Shown here piece by piece: positions 6,875-13,104 of a stretch of 50,419 nt of DNA (its first letter is position 1; every line of letters begins with the position of its first letter). The DNA lies in assembly GCF_002487355.1 (NCBI RefSeq), contig NZ_NTMG01000072.1, positions 1-50,419 of the forward strand, given 5' to 3'. The notes under the pieces were generated by a model. The model was not told the origin of the DNA. It was given only the letters and a program-made list of their open reading frames with translations, and ran no database searches. The position numbers and the translations under genes are program-made. The stretch comes from Candidatus Methanoperedens sp. BLZ2. GTDB lineage: Archaea > Halobacteriota > Methanosarcinia > Methanosarcinales > Methanoperedenaceae.

Positions 6875-7645
6875 TTAAGAAGTATAAACTCCTTCTCCAG
6901 GATGCACAACTATTCCTGTTGGTGTGATTTCATACGGATGGATGCCTTTGCTATGGTCCGATCCCCTCATCTTGAAAACCTCGACACTTCTAATCCTGAC
7001 ATCGTTAACCCGTTTGTTATACATTACTATTGTACCTTCGGTTACGAATGTTTCAACCCCGAACCTGCTGGTTGAATTTTCATCTATTATTTCACAGGTC
7101 ATAAACGAAGTTAATCCCAGTACTTCAAGAGTTGTGCTCAATTTTAAAAGCTCGACTCTTATTTTTGAAGGATCCTGCAAGTAAAAACCGATAGATGTTG
7201 TTCCATCAACAAGCGCCCTCTTGGCATCGATCGTATCCTGTATGGCAATTATCTGGTCCATCATGGAGCGAAGATCAAAAGGTCTTACATCAACGTATTT
7301 TTCATGGGATGGAATGCCTATCTTGGTTGAACATGCATCAATTATCGCAAGTTTTCCTTCATCCTCAAGGGCCTCAAAATCCCATCCGAACTTCAGGACA
7401 TTTTCCCTGACCTGATCAGGTCGTTCCTCTGTCGCTATATATATACCATTTTCTCCATATTTTGTTATGCCGTTATAGAGGTACTGGAGCCCAAATATGG
7501 TCTTTCCACAACCTGCTGCTCCCGATAACAGATATGATCTGTTTCTTAGTAATCCACCGCCACACAATTCGTCAAAACCTTCTATCCCTGTAGGAACACG
7601 CTTTGAGTCACCTTTTTCTGTCTTAATCTTTTTCTTATCAACCAT
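6875..7645 (-). CDS. KaiC-like RecA-superfamily ATPase
   Basis: A 256-residue single-domain KaiC-like protein. The start TGIEGFDELCGGG is diagnostic, followed by an intact Walker A GAAGCGKT (residues 42-49), TEERPDQVREN, and a Walker B-like RALVDGTTS. Such archaeal KaiC homologues are thought to be signalling ATPases that switch by ATP binding or autophosphorylation and partner with other domains. I chose ATG at 7645 rather than TTG at 7654, because AAGG lies nine bases before it. It leads the tpiA-elp3-HgdBC run. Unlike the KaiC-like proteins at 10609-12484, its P-loop is intact. Confidence 0.85.
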   Translation of the reverse strand: MVDKKKIKTEKGDSKRVPTGIEGFDELCGGGLLRNRSYLLSGAAGCGKTIFGLQYLYNGITKYGENGIYIATEERPDQVRENVLKFGWDFEALEDEGKLAIIDACSTKIGIPSHEKYVDVRPFDLRSMMDQIIAIQDTIDAKRALVDGTTSIGFYLQDPSKIRVELLKLSTTLEVLGLTSFMTCEIIDENSTSRFGVETFVTEGTIVMYNKRVNDVRIRSVEVFKMRGSDHSKGIHPYEITPTGIVVHPGEGVYTS

Positions 7646-7818
7646 GAAATTCAACCTTGATATAATATTCTTTTACTATATAAATACTTATTCGTCTTAT
7701 AGTTATAATTATGAGGCTTTTGTCTATTAAATAGTATAAGCGGTGAATAAAGTCTGGCCAAAAAAGCAAAGATTTATTTTTCCGGAGTCCTGTATAGTTA
7801 TTATTTCGGGGGTATATC

Positions 7819-10512
7819 TTGGTATCATCAAATCTGGATAGTATTTTCAATCCAAAAAGTATAGCACTGGTAGGAGCAAGTGATGAAGAAGGTTCGGTTG
7901 GATACATCTTGATGAAAAATTTAACCGAAATGGGATATAACGGAATCGTTTATCCTGTTAACATTCATAAACCCGAGATACTTGGGAAAAAAGCATACCC
8001 TGGGATTCCCCAGCTTCCTCAGACCGTTGACCTTGCTATAATTGCCACCCCGGCAGCAACCGTTCCCGATATAGTGGAGCAGTGCGGAATAGCCGGAATC
8101 AGGGGACTGATCATCATTTCAGCAGGATTTAAGGAAGTAGGAAAATTCGGAAAACTACTGGAAGAAAAGATCATTGAAATAAAAAAGAAGTACGGCATGA
8201 GAATAATAGGTCCAAATTGCCTTGGTATAATCCATCCTGATATCGGTCTTAACGCAACTTTTATTTCCAAGAAGCAAAAAACAGGCAGTATTGCCTTCAT
8301 ATCTCAAAGCGGGGCGCTGGGGTCAGCAATTCTTGACCTTGCCGCCCATGAGAACATTAATTTCAGCAATTTCGTTTCAGTAGGTTCAATGATCGATGTG
8401 AATTTCGGAGATCTGATCGACTATTTTGGCACTGATCCCAAAACAAGAAGCATTTTGATGTATATCGAAGGTATTACCGATGCCAGGAAATTCATGAGCG
8501 CAGCACGGCACTTTTCAAGAACAAAACCAATAATTGTCGTGAAATCAGGAAGATCTATTGAAAGTGCAAAGGCAGCCGCTTCGCACACAGGGGCTATAAC
8601 AGGCGAAGACATGGTATATGATGCTGCATTTAAGCGGGCAGGCATTGTGCGCGTAAAGGATATTGCAGACCTGTTCAACTGTGCCGAAGCTATAGGGAAG
8701 CAGCCGCTTCCCAAAGGACCGAACCTGGCCATAATTACAAATGCGGGCGGCCCTGGTGTAATGGCTTCAGATTCGATAGTATCTCTTGGCGGGAAACTTG
8801 CCCAATTAAGCAGCGAAACGATTGAGAAGCTAAATAGCGTTCTTCCTTCTCACTGGAGTAAAGGTAATCCCATTGACCTGCTTGGGGATGCAAATGCCCT
8901 CAGATATGTAGCTGCAGCAGAAGCATGTTTTAGTGATGAAAATGTTGATTGTGTTTTGATAATCTATACTCCGCAGGGAAGTTCTGATCCATCTGAAATA
9001 GCAGTAGAAATTTTGGATCTTTATAAAAATAAAAAGTTTTCTAAACCATATTTCACTTCTTTTATGGGTTACGAAGACGTGGAAAAAGCAAATCGTATTT
9101 TGACTGATAATGGCGTACCGACTTATTCCACTCCGGAACAGGCGGTTTCGACGTACATGTATATGTACCAGTATAAGCGCAACCTTGAGCTGCTGTACGA
9201 AACCCCGGTAGAGTTGCCTGTGGAAAGCACTCCGCCAAAACAGCCTCTGGCCTCTATTATTAGAAATGCTGCAAAGGAGAATCGAAAAATCCTGACGGAA
9301 ACCGAATCAAAACGTTTCCTTGAATATTATAATATTCCAATTGTTAAAACACGGGTGGCAAAAACTGTCGATGAAGCCATAACTTACGCGCTTCAAACAG
9401 GTTATCCTGTAGCCCTTAAGATCCTCTCACCTCAAATATCTCATAAAACAGATGTGGGGGGCGTTAGACTTGATATCAATTCCGAACCTGAACTTCGATC
9501 GGCTTATGAAGAAATCATGAAAAGTGTAAAAGAGCATAATCCGGATGCACAAATCCAGGGGATAACGGTACAGAAGATGGTCCGGAAAAAGGGTATTGAA
9601 ATAATTCTTGGCGCAAAAACTGATTCCCTTTTTGGCCCTGTAGTTATGTTCGGGAGGGGCGGGATTGATGTGGAAATATACAAAGATGTTGCTATCGGGC
9701 TTTTGCCGCTTAATCAGACTCTTGCAAGAAGAATGCTGGAAGAAACAAAAGTATATCGTCTTCTCAAAGGCTACAGAAATCTTCCACCTGCCAATATCAA
9801 TCTTTTAGAAGAAATAGTTGTTCGTTTTTCCCAGATGCTTGTGGATTTCCCGCAATTGAAAGAATTTGAGATAAATCCACTGTTGATTAATGAAAATGAT
9901 GCTTTTGCTCTTGATGCACGCGGAGTGATCGATAAAGAACTGCTCAGAGCAAAACCTCACGAGCATCTTGTCATTAGCCCTTATCCTGAAAAATACAGGT
10001 CCTTATGGAAGCTCCGGGATGGGCGAACAGTGATCCTGAGGCCAATAAAACCTGAAGATGAACCTTTATGGATTGAGATGTTCCGTAACTTTTCCCAGGA
10101 GTCCATACACTTCAGGTTATTTCAAACTGTAATTGGGCCAGTAGCACATGAGTACAGTGCAAGGTATTGTAATATCGACTATGACAGGGAACTTGCCATT
10201 GTGGCAGAAATAGAGGACGAAGGGAAAAGGAAAATGCTCGGAGTTGTCAGACTTAATATCGACCCTGCTGAGAATGCAGGCGAACTCTCTTTTATTGTTG
10301 CTGACCCATGGCAGGGCCAGGGTCTTGGTTCAAAAATGGTGGATTATATGATAGAAATTTGCAGGGATAAGCAGCTTGAGAAAATCAGTGCGGTGATGTT
10401 ATCAGATAATTACAGGGCAATAAAACTGTTTCAGGAAATGGGATTTACAATTGAATCACTGGATGATGGTACACAAAGAGCAGTTCTTGACCTGAAAGAG
10501 GAGATATCTTGA
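7819..10512 (+). CDS. Pat-like fusion: NDP-forming acyl-CoA synthetase + GNAT acetyltransferase
   Basis: An 897-residue protein with the domain order of bacterial protein acetyltransferase Pat/PatZ. Residues about 8-130 form a CoA-binding Rossmann domain (IALVGASDEEGSVG), 150-460 the ligase-CoA domains, 490-715 an ATP-grasp domain (GYPVALKILSPQISHKTDVG), and 731-897 a GNAT domain (GQGLGSKMVDYM). The catalytic His of ADP-forming acetyl-CoA synthetases seems present (His256 in AAASHTGAITG), whereas in Pat enzymes the synthetase part is regarded as regulatory and inactive. So it could be a true synthetase, a lysine acetyltransferase sensing acyl-CoA, or both. TTG start behind CGGGGGT. Confidence 0.85.
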   Translation: MVSSNLDSIFNPKSIALVGASDEEGSVGYILMKNLTEMGYNGIVYPVNIHKPEILGKKAYPGIPQLPQTVDLAIIATPAATVPDIVEQCGIAGIRGLIIISAGFKEVGKFGKLLEEKIIEIKKKYGMRIIGPNCLGIIHPDIGLNATFISKKQKTGSIAFISQSGALGSAILDLAAHENINFSNFVSVGSMIDVNFGDLIDYFGTDPKTRSILMYIEGITDARKFMSAARHFSRTKPIIVVKSGRSIESAKAAASHTGAITGEDMVYDAAFKRAGIVRVKDIADLFNCAEAIGKQPLPKGPNLAIITNAGGPGVMASDSIVSLGGKLAQLSSETIEKLNSVLPSHWSKGNPIDLLGDANALRYVAAAEACFSDENVDCVLIIYTPQGSSDPSEIAVEILDLYKNKKFSKPYFTSFMGYEDVEKANRILTDNGVPTYSTPEQAVSTYMYMYQYKRNLELLYETPVELPVESTPPKQPLASIIRNAAKENRKILTETESKRFLEYYNIPIVKTRVAKTVDEAITYALQTGYPVALKILSPQISHKTDVGGVRLDINSEPELRSAYEEIMKSVKEHNPDAQIQGITVQKMVRKKGIEIILGAKTDSLFGPVVMFGRGGIDVEIYKDVAIGLLPLNQTLARRMLEETKVYRLLKGYRNLPPANINLLEEIVVRFSQMLVDFPQLKEFEINPLLINENDAFALDARGVIDKELLRAKPHEHLVISPYPEKYRSLWKLRDGRTVILRPIKPEDEPLWIEMFRNFSQESIHFRLFQTVIGPVAHEYSARYCNIDYDRELAIVAEIEDEGKRKMLGVVRLNIDPAENAGELSFIVADPWQGQGLGSKMVDYMIEICRDKQLEKISAVMLSDNYRAIKLFQEMGFTIESLDDGTQRAVLDLKEEIS

Positions 10513-10558: not shown

Positions 10559-10586
10559 TTAGGATTTATATACACCAAAATCCTAA
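10559..10586. promoter_or_regulatory. perfect 9-bp inverted repeat spanning a TATA box
   Basis: TTAGGATTT (10559-10567) and its exact reverse complement AAATCCTAA (10578-10586) are separated by 10 bases. The TATA-like box TTTATATA (10565-10572) lies across the left arm, about 25 bases before the expected transcription start of the signalling operon. A dimeric regulator bound here would block or recruit TBP/TFB, so I read it as an operator-promoter. Confidence 0.5.
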
Positions 10587-10608: not shown

Positions 10609-11313
10609 ATGAGCGACTATACATTAGGTATTAAGGAACTGGATGATGCGATTGGAGGCATAAGAAAAGGATCGAATATAATGCTTATAGGACCACCTAT
10701 GAGTGGGAAGGAAGCCATTCTGAACCACATCATGTACAATGGCGCTGTAAAAAATGAAAATGCAATTATTACAGTCAGTACGCGTGAATCCGCCGTACAT
10801 ATTCTTGAATGGTTCAAGGAACACGATTTGAATCTTCCCATGTCAAGAATCGGGATAATCGACTGTGTTACAAAAACTCTTGGAGGCGCTTCGATTGAAA
10901 ATGAGAATATAAAAATCGCAAGTAGTCCTGTTGATCTTACGGGTATCGGTGTTAAGATCAGCCAGTTTTTTGAGGAATTCTTTATGAAAAAGAATACTCA
11001 GAAGATCCAGTTATATATAAATTCACTCTCAACAATATTGATGTATTCAAATATTCAGACTGTTTTCAGGTTCCTTCATGTTTTTACCGGTCGTATTAAA
11101 GCAGCGGGTGCTCTGGGGATTTATGTCATAGAGAGCGGTATGCACGACGACCAGGCGGTTGCAACTTTAAAACAATTATTTGACGGCATGATCGAGATAA
11201 AATCTGTGGAGGATAAAAATTTTATACGAGTGGTCGGAATATCTCAAAAACCAACACCATGGTTTGAATATGAGATCGATGGCCATAATATAAAGATCAT
11301 AAGGGGAAATTAA
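10609..11313 (+). CDS. KaiC/RadA-like protein with degenerate P-loop
   Basis: A 234-residue RecA-superfamily protein of KaiC type: LGIKELDDAIGGIRKGSNIMLIG matches the KaiC start. The Walker A region is GPPMSGKEA (residues 28-36), where the Ser/Thr after Lys is replaced by Glu, so ATP hydrolysis is doubtful. First gene of a tight operon: the next start lies one base after its stop. It probably acts as a structural or sensory partner of the GTPase/Roadblock pair downstream. The leader is very short, about 10-15 bases after the inferred transcription start. Confidence 0.75.
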   Translation: MSDYTLGIKELDDAIGGIRKGSNIMLIGPPMSGKEAILNHIMYNGAVKNENAIITVSTRESAVHILEWFKEHDLNLPMSRIGIIDCVTKTLGGASIENENIKIASSPVDLTGIGVKISQFFEEFFMKKNTQKIQLYINSLSTILMYSNIQTVFRFLHVFTGRIKAAGALGIYVIESGMHDDQAVATLKQLFDGMIEIKSVEDKNFIRVVGISQKPTPWFEYEIDGHNIKIIRGN

Positions 11314-11314
11314 T

Positions 11315-12484
11315 ATGATAGAGACAGGAATCCCCAAGCTTGATAAATTCCTTGGGGGGGGTATCCCAAGAGGGAAGAGTCTTGTTTATTACAGCCAGCC
11401 GGGCGTTGAAGGTGAGATATTTGGATTACAGACAGTTTATGGCACACTTAAGACGGGCGGAACATGCGTTTTTGTCGTATCAAGCACTATACCTGATATT
11501 GTAAAAGGCCAATTTGACGAGTTTGGCTGGGATATTAGCTCATTTAAAGATAAATTATTCTTTGTAGATTCCTATAATCCTTTAATCGGTGCCCCATCTA
11601 ATGAAAAGTATGTTGTTTCAAATCCGGATAGGATAGAAGATTTTCACAAGACAATAATGGATATTATAAAAGAATTACCACCAAGTACTATCGTTTTCGG
11701 TTCTCTTTCAACAATCATGGACCTATGTGGGGAGAAAGAAACAATTGAAGCGGTCAGGACATGGAATAAGATGGCGATGCTGTATGATCATACCATCGTT
11801 TATAATTTCACGGCATGGCCTTATTCTGATGAAACATTAAATCTGATCAAGGGAGACCTTTTCAATTCGGTTATTTCTATCGGCGGAATAGCTGAACGTG
11901 TTATCTTCGGGCAGTATTTCGGAATAATGAAATCAGACTGGGCAGAGGTATCCAGGAAATCAATGCTTTTCAGGGTTTTAAGGCCAGGCGGTATAAAGAT
12001 ATTCATACCTAAAATACTTGTCACAGGTCCTTTTGATGCAGGAAAGAGCACATTTGTCCATGCGCTGTCCACGCGGGCGATATCAGTTGACAGGCTTGGT
12101 ACAACTGTTGCCATGGACCACGGTCATGTGGAATATAAGGGTTTTAGTGCCGATATATTCGGAACACCAGGGCAGGAACGGTTTGACCCGATCATAAAAT
12201 TGCTCAGCGGTGAATCAATGGGTGTTTTTCTTATTGTGGATTCAACAAATCCTTCTGATTTTATTCGGGCAAAGCATATGCTTGATATTACAAAGTCCTA
12301 TGGACTTCCGTATGTTGTGGTCGCAAATAAACAGGATTTGCCGGGAGCATTAACTCCTGAAGAAATAAGGGAACAATTCCATCTACCAGAGGACATACCT
12401 ATCGTTCGTGCAGTAGCAAAAGATAAGATCGGGGTATATGAAGCATTTGAAGTATTACTGGATAGGGTCACGGGAGGGATCTGA
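11315..12484 (+). CDS. KaiC-like domain fused to a Ras-like small GTPase
   Basis: A 389-residue fusion. Residues 1 to about 220 are KaiC-like (IPKLDKFLGGGIPRGKSLVYYS), but the P-loop is lost (QPGVEGEIF in place of GxxxxGKT). Residues about 228-389 form an intact small GTPase: P-loop GPFDAGKST (238-246), TTVAMDHG switch I region, GTPGQERF (283-290), NKQD (338-341). The TTVAMD and FGTPGQERF signatures resemble the CvnD GTPases of actinobacterial conservons, which also pair with a Roadblock protein. The Roadblock gene follows directly, so the latter is the likely GTPase regulator. ATG behind AAGGGGAAAT. Confidence 0.85.
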   Translation: MIETGIPKLDKFLGGGIPRGKSLVYYSQPGVEGEIFGLQTVYGTLKTGGTCVFVVSSTIPDIVKGQFDEFGWDISSFKDKLFFVDSYNPLIGAPSNEKYVVSNPDRIEDFHKTIMDIIKELPPSTIVFGSLSTIMDLCGEKETIEAVRTWNKMAMLYDHTIVYNFTAWPYSDETLNLIKGDLFNSVISIGGIAERVIFGQYFGIMKSDWAEVSRKSMLFRVLRPGGIKIFIPKILVTGPFDAGKSTFVHALSTRAISVDRLGTTVAMDHGHVEYKGFSADIFGTPGQERFDPIIKLLSGESMGVFLIVDSTNPSDFIRAKHMLDITKSYGLPYVVVANKQDLPGALTPEEIREQFHLPEDIPIVRAVAKDKIGVYEAFEVLLDRVTGGI

Positions 12485-12853
12485 TTGTCCGATACAATAG
12501 AAATGGTAGATAAGTTATTGGCAGATCTGAAAAATGTAGGCGGTGTGATTGCGTGTGCTGCCGCAAGCCGTGACGGATTGCTCATCCGGGCTATTATGCA
12601 GAAAGAACAAATTGTAGAATCCCTGGCTGCGATGTCCGCCACGATACTCGGAGCAGCTGAGACTGCAACAACTCATGTTGAAATGGGCATACCTACAAGA
12701 GTAATTGTTGAATCGGATCATGGAAAATTAATAGTTGTCGGAGCAGGACCCAAGGCTTTGTTAATCCTTCTTACAAGCCCGGATGTCGGTTTAGGTTTGA
12801 TCCTTCTGGAACTTGATAAATCAGCGAAAAAGTTAAAAGAGATATTGACATGA
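12485..12853 (+). CDS. Roadblock/LC7 domain protein
   Basis: A 122-residue single Roadblock/LC7 domain: DLKNVGGVIACAAASRDGLL, then SATILGAAETA, then a beta-strand HGKLIVVGAGPKALLILL, the usual pattern. Family members (MglB, CvnB) bind Ras-like GTPases and act as GAPs or scaffolds. Its TTG start directly follows the TGA of the GTPase fusion gene and is preceded by GGGAGGGATC, so the two are made together. The normal family length is about 120. Confidence 0.85.
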   Translation: MSDTIEMVDKLLADLKNVGGVIACAAASRDGLLIRAIMQKEQIVESLAAMSATILGAAETATTHVEMGIPTRVIVESDHGKLIVVGAGPKALLILLTSPDVGLGLILLELDKSAKKLKEILT

Positions 12854-13104
12854 ACAAACAGGAAAAAAAAACAGAAGCCGCTTCGATTGAACCCACGTTA
12901 CATGTAGGAAAATCAGGTATTGAGAGCGTGGTTGAAGAGTTAAAAATCCAATTGAAGAACAGGAATATGGTAAAAATTAAAATTCTTAAATCTGCTTTTG
13001 CTGAAACCGGAAAAAAAGAACTGGCCCAAAAACTTGCCGACCTTTCAAACTCAGAACTTATTGAGGTCAGGGGTAATACGGCGGTTTTATGCCGAAAAAG
13101 GTAA
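12850..13104 (+). CDS. CRM-domain RNA-binding protein (YhbY-like)
   Basis: An 84-residue CRM/YhbY-type protein: EPTLHVGKSGIESVVEELK, then KNRNMVKIKIL and the C-terminal VRGNTAVLCRK. Bacterial YhbY binds pre-50S ribosomes; archaeal versions are usually near ribosome or translation genes, as here (S19e follows). Starts with ATG overlapping the Roadblock stop by 4 bases. The loop usually GxxG is GKSG here. Confidence 0.85.
   Translation: MNKQEKKTEAASIEPTLHVGKSGIESVVEELKIQLKNRNMVKIKILKSAFAETGKKELAQKLADLSNSELIEVRGNTAVLCRKR

Follow-up and report, generated by a model that had tools for sequence, protein, structure and literature searches.

A conserved archaeal three-gene module of a small KaiC-like protein, a pseudo-KaiC/GTPase fusion and a Roadblock protein

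Results

Anatomy of the locus in Candidatus Methanoperedens

The window, i.e. the whole stretch of DNA that was analysed, comprises 50,419 nucleotides of contig NZ_NTMG01000072.1 of Candidatus Methanoperedens sp. BLZ2 (GCF_002487355.1), a methane-oxidising archaeon of the ANME-2d group. Three abutting open reading frames are found on its forward strand at 10609-12853, coding for a small KaiC-like protein (ORF1), a fusion of a KaiC-like domain and a Ras-like GTPase (ORF2) and a Roadblock/LC7 protein (ORF3). The gaps between them measure 1 base (ORF1/ORF2) and 0 bases (ORF2/ORF3). For the KaiC-like/Ras-like GTPase fusion we coined the name KaiG, which is used throughout. Pfam searches returned KaiC and DUF7504 for ORF1 and KaiC plus Arf/Ras for ORF2, all above the curated cut-offs, and Robl_LC7 for ORF3, with 45.5 bits compared to a cut-off of 23. 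The features of the locus are:

10565..10572, + strand: candidate TATA-box-like element TTTATATA, about 37 bases 5' of the first start codon, from reading of the sequence only
10609..11313, + strand: small KaiC-like protein, 234 aa, DUF7504/DUF7090/KaiC (Pfam, AlphaFold, KaiC/PH0284 fold), adjoining KaiG in most loci
10690..10713, + strand: altered Walker A motif GPPMSGKE of the small KaiC (sequence and census of 72 homologues)
11315..12484, + strand: KaiG, 389 aa, with a pseudo-KaiC at about residues 1-224 and an MglA-type GTPase at about residues 232-385 (Pfam, AlphaFold, Foldseek)
11396..11419, + strand: lost Walker A motif QPGVEGEI in the KaiC half of KaiG (Lys in 0/80 non-redundant homologues)
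12008..12469, + strand: GTPase domain of KaiG (alignment, motif census, tree)
12026-12049, + strand: G1 motif GPFDAGKS of the KaiG GTPase
12158-12184, + strand: G3 motif FGTPGQERF of the KaiG GTPase
12326-12337, + strand: G4 motif NKQD of the KaiG GTPase
12485..12853, + strand: Roadblock/LC7 protein with a TTG start and a GGAGG-like site just upstream (Pfam, 45.5 bits; RDG (Asp-Gly) pair)
12850..13104, + strand: CRS1/YhbY RNA-binding protein (Pfam), overlapping the Roadblock stop

In the named Methanoperedens relatives, KaiG is mostly 80-99% identical to the KaiG of the window. The downstream neighbours of the module in the window are translation genes, and no sensor, active KaiC, output or pilus gene adjoins it there. 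About 3 kb from the module, at 6875-7654 on the minus strand, the window carries an active KaiC-family protein with an intact GAAGCGKT motif, and positions 7819-10512 code for a fusion of an acyl-CoA synthetase, with its alpha and beta parts, and a GNAT acetyltransferase, resembling bacterial Pat enzymes. A defence system was considered and set aside, as PADLOC yielded only a weak match, between the small KaiC and mad8 (24 bits, E 4e-6), and nothing for KaiG or the Roadblock protein.

Distribution and gene order

Full-length KaiG was detected in 65 of the 186 genomes of the order Methanosarcinales and in about 69 of the 392 sampled genomes of the phylum, both counted from the listing and the latter defined as matches covering the GTPase within a frame of approximately 390-570 aa. 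Most members of the largest family of the order lack it. Full-length KaiG was also obtained, with E values up to 1e-30, for 29 of the 245 genomes sampled from Thermoplasmatota, the phylum of the Thermoplasmata MAG G498, and further loci of this phylum carry the three-gene set. The survey of the operon across Methanosarcinales that the initial annotation had proposed thus shows a set that is not general in the order and that occurs elsewhere in the phylum and in Thermoplasmatota.

Among 95 KaiG loci scanned, a count that includes some genomes fetched twice, 62 have the order small KaiC-KaiG-Roadblock and 11 the order Roadblock-KaiG-small KaiC; 17 have no Roadblock gene, three show Roadblock-KaiG with no recognised small KaiC, and two are of other forms. 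The three-gene set is conserved, in two gene orders, across Halobacteriota and Thermoplasmatota. From this conservation over two archaeal phyla, the module looks like an old signalling switch. One additional protein (L149:4345-5997) combines the pseudo-KaiC half of KaiG with another C-terminal domain in place of the GTPase, for which only a sub-threshold match to carbon-nitrogen hydrolases was found.

The Roadblock partner

The Roadblock protein of the window contains the conserved Asp-Gly pair (SRDGLL). Its best solved relatives are Roadblock proteins including Asgard ones, among them 7f8m and 7yh1, which we take to belong to the Asgard series; CvnB5 ranks lower. In four genomes (G243, G274, G498 and G499), the module Roadblock is the only Roadblock match and is therefore a dedicated partner there. 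A natural fusion was found in L132, on a contig of 2.96 million bases, where KaiC, GTPase and Roadblock are joined in one ORF of 546 aa whose domain order equals the gene order, each domain being matched by Pfam over the cut-off. As the initial annotation had presumed, the GTPase and Roadblock genes are conserved as neighbours, lying next to each other in most loci.

In 17 of the 95 scanned loci, no Roadblock gene adjoins KaiG (families f16, f19 and f25, the Methanoperedens paralogue, and G208, which was fetched twice and lies near a contig end), and the GTPase motifs are damaged in some of these (L145, L122). The coupling of GTPase and Roadblock is thus not universal. The small KaiC-KaiG pairs of families f16, f19 and f25 (L119-L130, L145), some of them with damaged GTPase motifs, have their own surroundings: in L120, the pair follows FeoA/FeoB-type genes and precedes tetrapyrrole-methylase-family and DUF357 genes, and similar gene sizes are seen in other loci of these families.

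The genome of the window holds a second Roadblock gene, located directly 5' of a double active KaiC, an arrangement found at L086:5016-6898. Beyond the double KaiC lie substrate-binding-like, sensor and response-regulator genes, so that this genome has a second link between KaiC and Roadblock.

Neighbouring genes and possible output

The genes next to the module differ between lineages. A gene with a V4R/TRAPPC3 fold adjoins it in family f9 and in L187, whereas there is none beside the module in the window. In family f9, the V4R gene lies 3' of the Roadblock gene in nearly all loci (L105-L110, L112, L114, L115, L117, L134, L135), and in L187, a thermoplasmatal locus, between the Roadblock gene and KaiG. 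In L155, a protoglobin gene (L155:3591-4154) takes the latter place and is followed by a weak V4R-like neighbour. At the second KaiG copy of family f3 (L133, L146, L147), a PAS-array protein comes first, followed by Roadblock, KaiG and a small KaiC whose GPPKxGKS is intact, and in five thermoplasmatal loci the gene just 5' of KaiG codes for an active KaiC that has kept its P-loop intact (GxPGTGKT). The tblastn relatives in bacteria show a DUF4388-GTPase-Roadblock-protoglobin arrangement in Thermus and the conservon in Streptomyces. What these loci share is a pair of Roadblock and GTPase whose sensors are interchangeable. Protoglobin stands beside Roadblock both in the archaeal KaiG operon of L155 and in a GTPase-Roadblock operon on a Thermus plasmid (L159).

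With regard to output, a run of T2SSE, T2SSF and T2SSF genes (pilus-type ATPase/TadC) leads directly into Roadblock-KaiG-small KaiC in L189 (3402-7492) and L190 (5522-9975). It is conceivable, and compatible with a GTPase switch, that the output is a type IV pilus or an archaellum-like machine whose place or timing is set by the module. KaiC and Roadblock genes have been reported near archaeal pilus loci (PMC4858521), and in Myxococcus both motility and pili are targets of MglA and SofG (PMC4316618); on the other hand, the linkage is confined to two related genomes, and the module in the window has no adjoining pilus gene. We regard this idea as tentative, and the pilus-like machine as the best single hint of the output.

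The KaiC-like domains

The motif QPGVEGEI in KaiG of the window retains neither the first Gly nor the Lys nor the S/T of the Walker A consensus GxxxxGK[ST], and this half of the protein likewise has no catalytic EE and no KxRGS motif. Of the hallmarks of an active KaiC, which are the Walker A motif, a pair of catalytic glutamates and the Asp of Walker B, none is present. The Walker Lys is absent from the KaiC half of all KaiG proteins in a non-redundant set clustered at 85% identity (0/80). The AlphaFold model of KaiG, for which, as for the small KaiC, the alignments were built from the window and the fetched sequences, reached a pLDDT of 88.8 and a pTM of 0.82, and Foldseek searches with it led to PH0284 and KaiC. 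For the small KaiC the values were 91.4 and 0.90, and Foldseek pointed to the same KaiC/PH0284 fold. The models thus indicate that the full KaiC fold is retained in both proteins despite the lost or altered site. The definition of an inactivated KaiC (iKaiC), a KaiC fold kept with its ATPase motifs lost, would fit KaiG fully and the small KaiC partly, as judged from motifs and models.

In the small KaiC, the first Gly and the GK of GPPMSGKE are retained and only the S/T is replaced, by Glu. The initial annotation had held that both KaiC-like domains lost their Walker A motif; this proved right for ORF2, and for ORF1 only in part, as GxxxxGK is kept and S/T changed to E. Among 72 non-redundant homologues obtained by clustering, the S/T site is occupied by E in 41 and by D in 13 (E/D 54/72), and by S in nine. 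The Ser persists in two clades, namely family f9 and the second copy of family f3, which have an intact GPxxxGKS. The Walker Lys is present in 53/72 and the Walker B Asp in 39/72; the Methanoperedens proteins have an Asn in Walker B in addition to lacking the S/T. Catalytic residues are mostly lost from the small KaiC. In some small KaiCs the lysine is gone and the acid retained, e.g. APPMSGAE and APPMSYAD. From the sequences, the small KaiC looks like a protein with a conserved acidic P-loop rather than one in simple decay, and selection for an acid, not drift, may have acted at the S/T site. In L177:4622-6256 and L180:44-2644, a long, charged protein of coiled-coil-like character ends in a small KaiC domain.

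Alternatively, the small KaiC might not be a pseudo-ATPase but still bind ATP, with weak or no hydrolysis, the acid merely altering metal use, and the module would couple an ATP sensor with a GTPase. The frequent conservation of the lysine and the Walker B Asp is consistent with this, as is the fully intact motif of families f9 and f3. However, the persistence of the acid where the lysine has been lost is not predicted for a nucleotide site, and the shortage of catalytic residues, together with the Walker B Asn of Methanoperedens, also argues against it. We therefore consider an ATP sensor rather unlikely.

The GTPase domain

In agreement with the initial annotation, the fused Ras-like GTPase is intact, with GPFDAGKS, TT (GTTVAMD in G2), FGTPGQERF and NKQD. 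Across the 80 non-redundant KaiG proteins, the P-loop is invariably present (G1 GK[ST], 80/80), followed by the G4 Asp (78/80), the G2 Thr (77/80) and the G3 Gln (69/80), meaning that about 11 of them have no catalytic Gln.

A role of this GTPase as a translation- or ribosome-linked factor would accord with the finding just downstream of a YhbY homologue in almost every ANME-2 locus fetched and of rpS19e in almost every Methanoperedens locus fetched. In other lineages, however, the neighbours differ (V4R, PAS, Feo genes, aconitase-family, T2SS), so that the YhbY/rpS19e link is probably one of shared transcription only, and such a role appears very unlikely.

MglA groups 2-5 are characterised by GTPGQ in G3 and by a G2 in which Thr replaces the arginine finger; the mark of group 2 (CvnD) is NxFD in G4 (PMC4316618). 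KaiG has the features by which groups 2-5 are recognised, i.e. a GxxxxGK[ST] G1, an [NT]KxD G4, GTPGQ and the G2 Thr, and the adjacent Roadblock gene lies within the four genes considered for MglB/Roadblock neighbours in the MglA survey. That survey classified only proteins of up to 240 aa and reported no conserved neighbours for the archaeal group 4 (PMC4316618). With its 389 aa and its KaiC half, KaiG falls outside this single-domain limit, and the fusion would thus have escaped the survey.

We computed a tree of KaiG, CvnD, Thermus and Deinococcus GTPases, stand-alone archaeal GTPases and eukaryotic Arf/Rab, leaving aside group 1 MglA. KaiG forms one side of this tree with weak support (79/73), apart from a grouping of CvnD, the other bacterial and the stand-alone archaeal GTPases (98/92), in which six stand-alone archaeal GTPases, unconfirmed as group 4, have a branch of their own. 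A specific kinship with CvnD, to which the resemblance initially read from the GTPase signatures might point, gained no support: GTPGQ is common to MglA groups 2-5, G4 is NKQD and not NxFD, the stretch between G1 and G2 is not extended in KaiG as it is in the compared bacterial GTPases, and in the phylogeny that had been called for it falls outside the CvnD branch. Membership in an archaeal conservon (CvnA-D), towards which the shared GTPGQ and the tblastn hits to CvnD with Roadblock neighbours might point, is highly improbable on these motif and tree data and in view of the neighbourhood, which contains neither a histidine kinase nor a DUF742 gene, and was rejected.

Selection on the module

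Comparison with near relatives gave dN/dS values of 0.04-0.13 for all three genes; dS approaches or exceeds 1 in some comparisons, and the pair with dS of 0.35-0.39 gives 0.08-0.13. Strong purifying selection acts on each of the three genes. The concern that homologues keep intact P-loops and that the changes are sequencing errors was raised in the initial annotation; the homologues likewise have no intact P-loop, and since dozens of independent genomes share these states and dN/dS is this low, error, chance or decay, suggested at most by damaged GTPases in a few family f16 loci, can be dismissed.

Discussion

We propose, with a probability of roughly 60%, that the module is a Roadblock-regulated MglA-type GTPase switch on KaiC-fold scaffolds. 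The suggestion that pseudo-KaiC domains serve as a scaffold in a GTPase switch gains support from the non-catalytic KaiC domains and the conserved GTPase-Roadblock neighbourhood, which make a scaffold likely. KaiG would bind and hydrolyse GTP via its C-terminal domain, and a Roadblock dimer, by analogy to MglB acting on MglA, may control the GTP step as a GAP or exchange regulator. The KaiC half of KaiG, having probably lost ATP binding, would offer a surface for docking and assembly; it would most likely pair with the small acidic-P-loop KaiC and might also meet active KaiC-family hub proteins, either directly or via the small KaiC. The GTP state would then alter which partners the assembly holds, and sensors, whatever their signal, would act through the Roadblock protein on whatever output the switch may have.

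In a more far-reaching version of this switch, the conserved acidic P-loop would hold the small KaiC permanently in a locked state free of nucleotide, and as such a subunit it would join KaiG and an active KaiC hub to make a mixed assembly complete; V4R, PAS or globin sensors would act via Roadblock, and the whole would represent an old switch of two phyla and a TRAPP-like set of GTPase regulators outside Asgard. Taken together, this combination of claims is improbable.

The module joins KaiC hubs and Roadblock-regulated Ras-like GTPases, which are usually treated apart, in one conserved archaeal operon. It provides a concrete system in which the role of inactivated KaiC domains, and the reason for the retention of an acidic P-loop, can be addressed. 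Moreover, GTPase and Roadblock, in some lineages with a V4R/TRAPPC3-fold protein, occur in one operon outside Asgard, which bears on the origin of eukaryotic GTPase regulators.

Several elements of the module have been described before, namely iKaiC domains (PMC5847659), MglA/MglB pairs (PMC4316618) and Asgard Roadblock-GTPase fusions (PMC10933270, PMC4917890), and KaiC and Roadblock genes have been treated as separate neighbours of pilus loci (PMC4858521). In the open literature searched, which did not extend to the 2017 KaiC hub paper of Makarova (mBio), we found no description of a KaiC-GTPase-Roadblock combination. Inactivated KaiC and MglA/MglB are thus known separately, and their combination is apparently new, with the reservation that it may have been described in Makarova 2017.

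Comparison with known systems

The module resembles MglA/MglB in its G3 motif GTPGQ, which like that of groups 2-5 lacks the usual Asp, its G2 Thr and a Roadblock partner in the same operon (PMC4316618), but differs in that the GTPase is fused behind a pseudo-KaiC in a protein of 389 aa and is accompanied by a second KaiC-like gene. With the actinobacterial conservons CvnA-D it shares an operon of GTPase plus Roadblock, whereas it has no histidine kinase and no DUF742, carries NKQD instead of NxFD and belongs to a different branch. Like the archaeal iKaiC proteins, it contains a KaiC fold with lost ATPase motifs, which in those cases is found in signalling proteins (PMC5847659); here, however, the KaiC forms a fusion with a GTPase and has a Roadblock protein as its counterpart, and the small KaiC has an acidic P-loop. 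The GTPase-Roadblock fusions and TRAPPC3/V4R proteins of Asgard archaea are similar with respect to GTPase and Roadblock, together with the V4R fold in some lineages (PMC10933270), but the GTPase of the module is of the MglA type and not of the Rab/Rag type, a KaiC half is present, and all is held in one operon, which is not general in Asgard (PMC10933270). Finally, KaiG recalls the tandem KaiC (CI-CII) clock protein in that an N-terminal KaiC domain is followed by a second P-loop domain, except that in KaiG this second domain is a GTPase and the first one has no ATP motifs.
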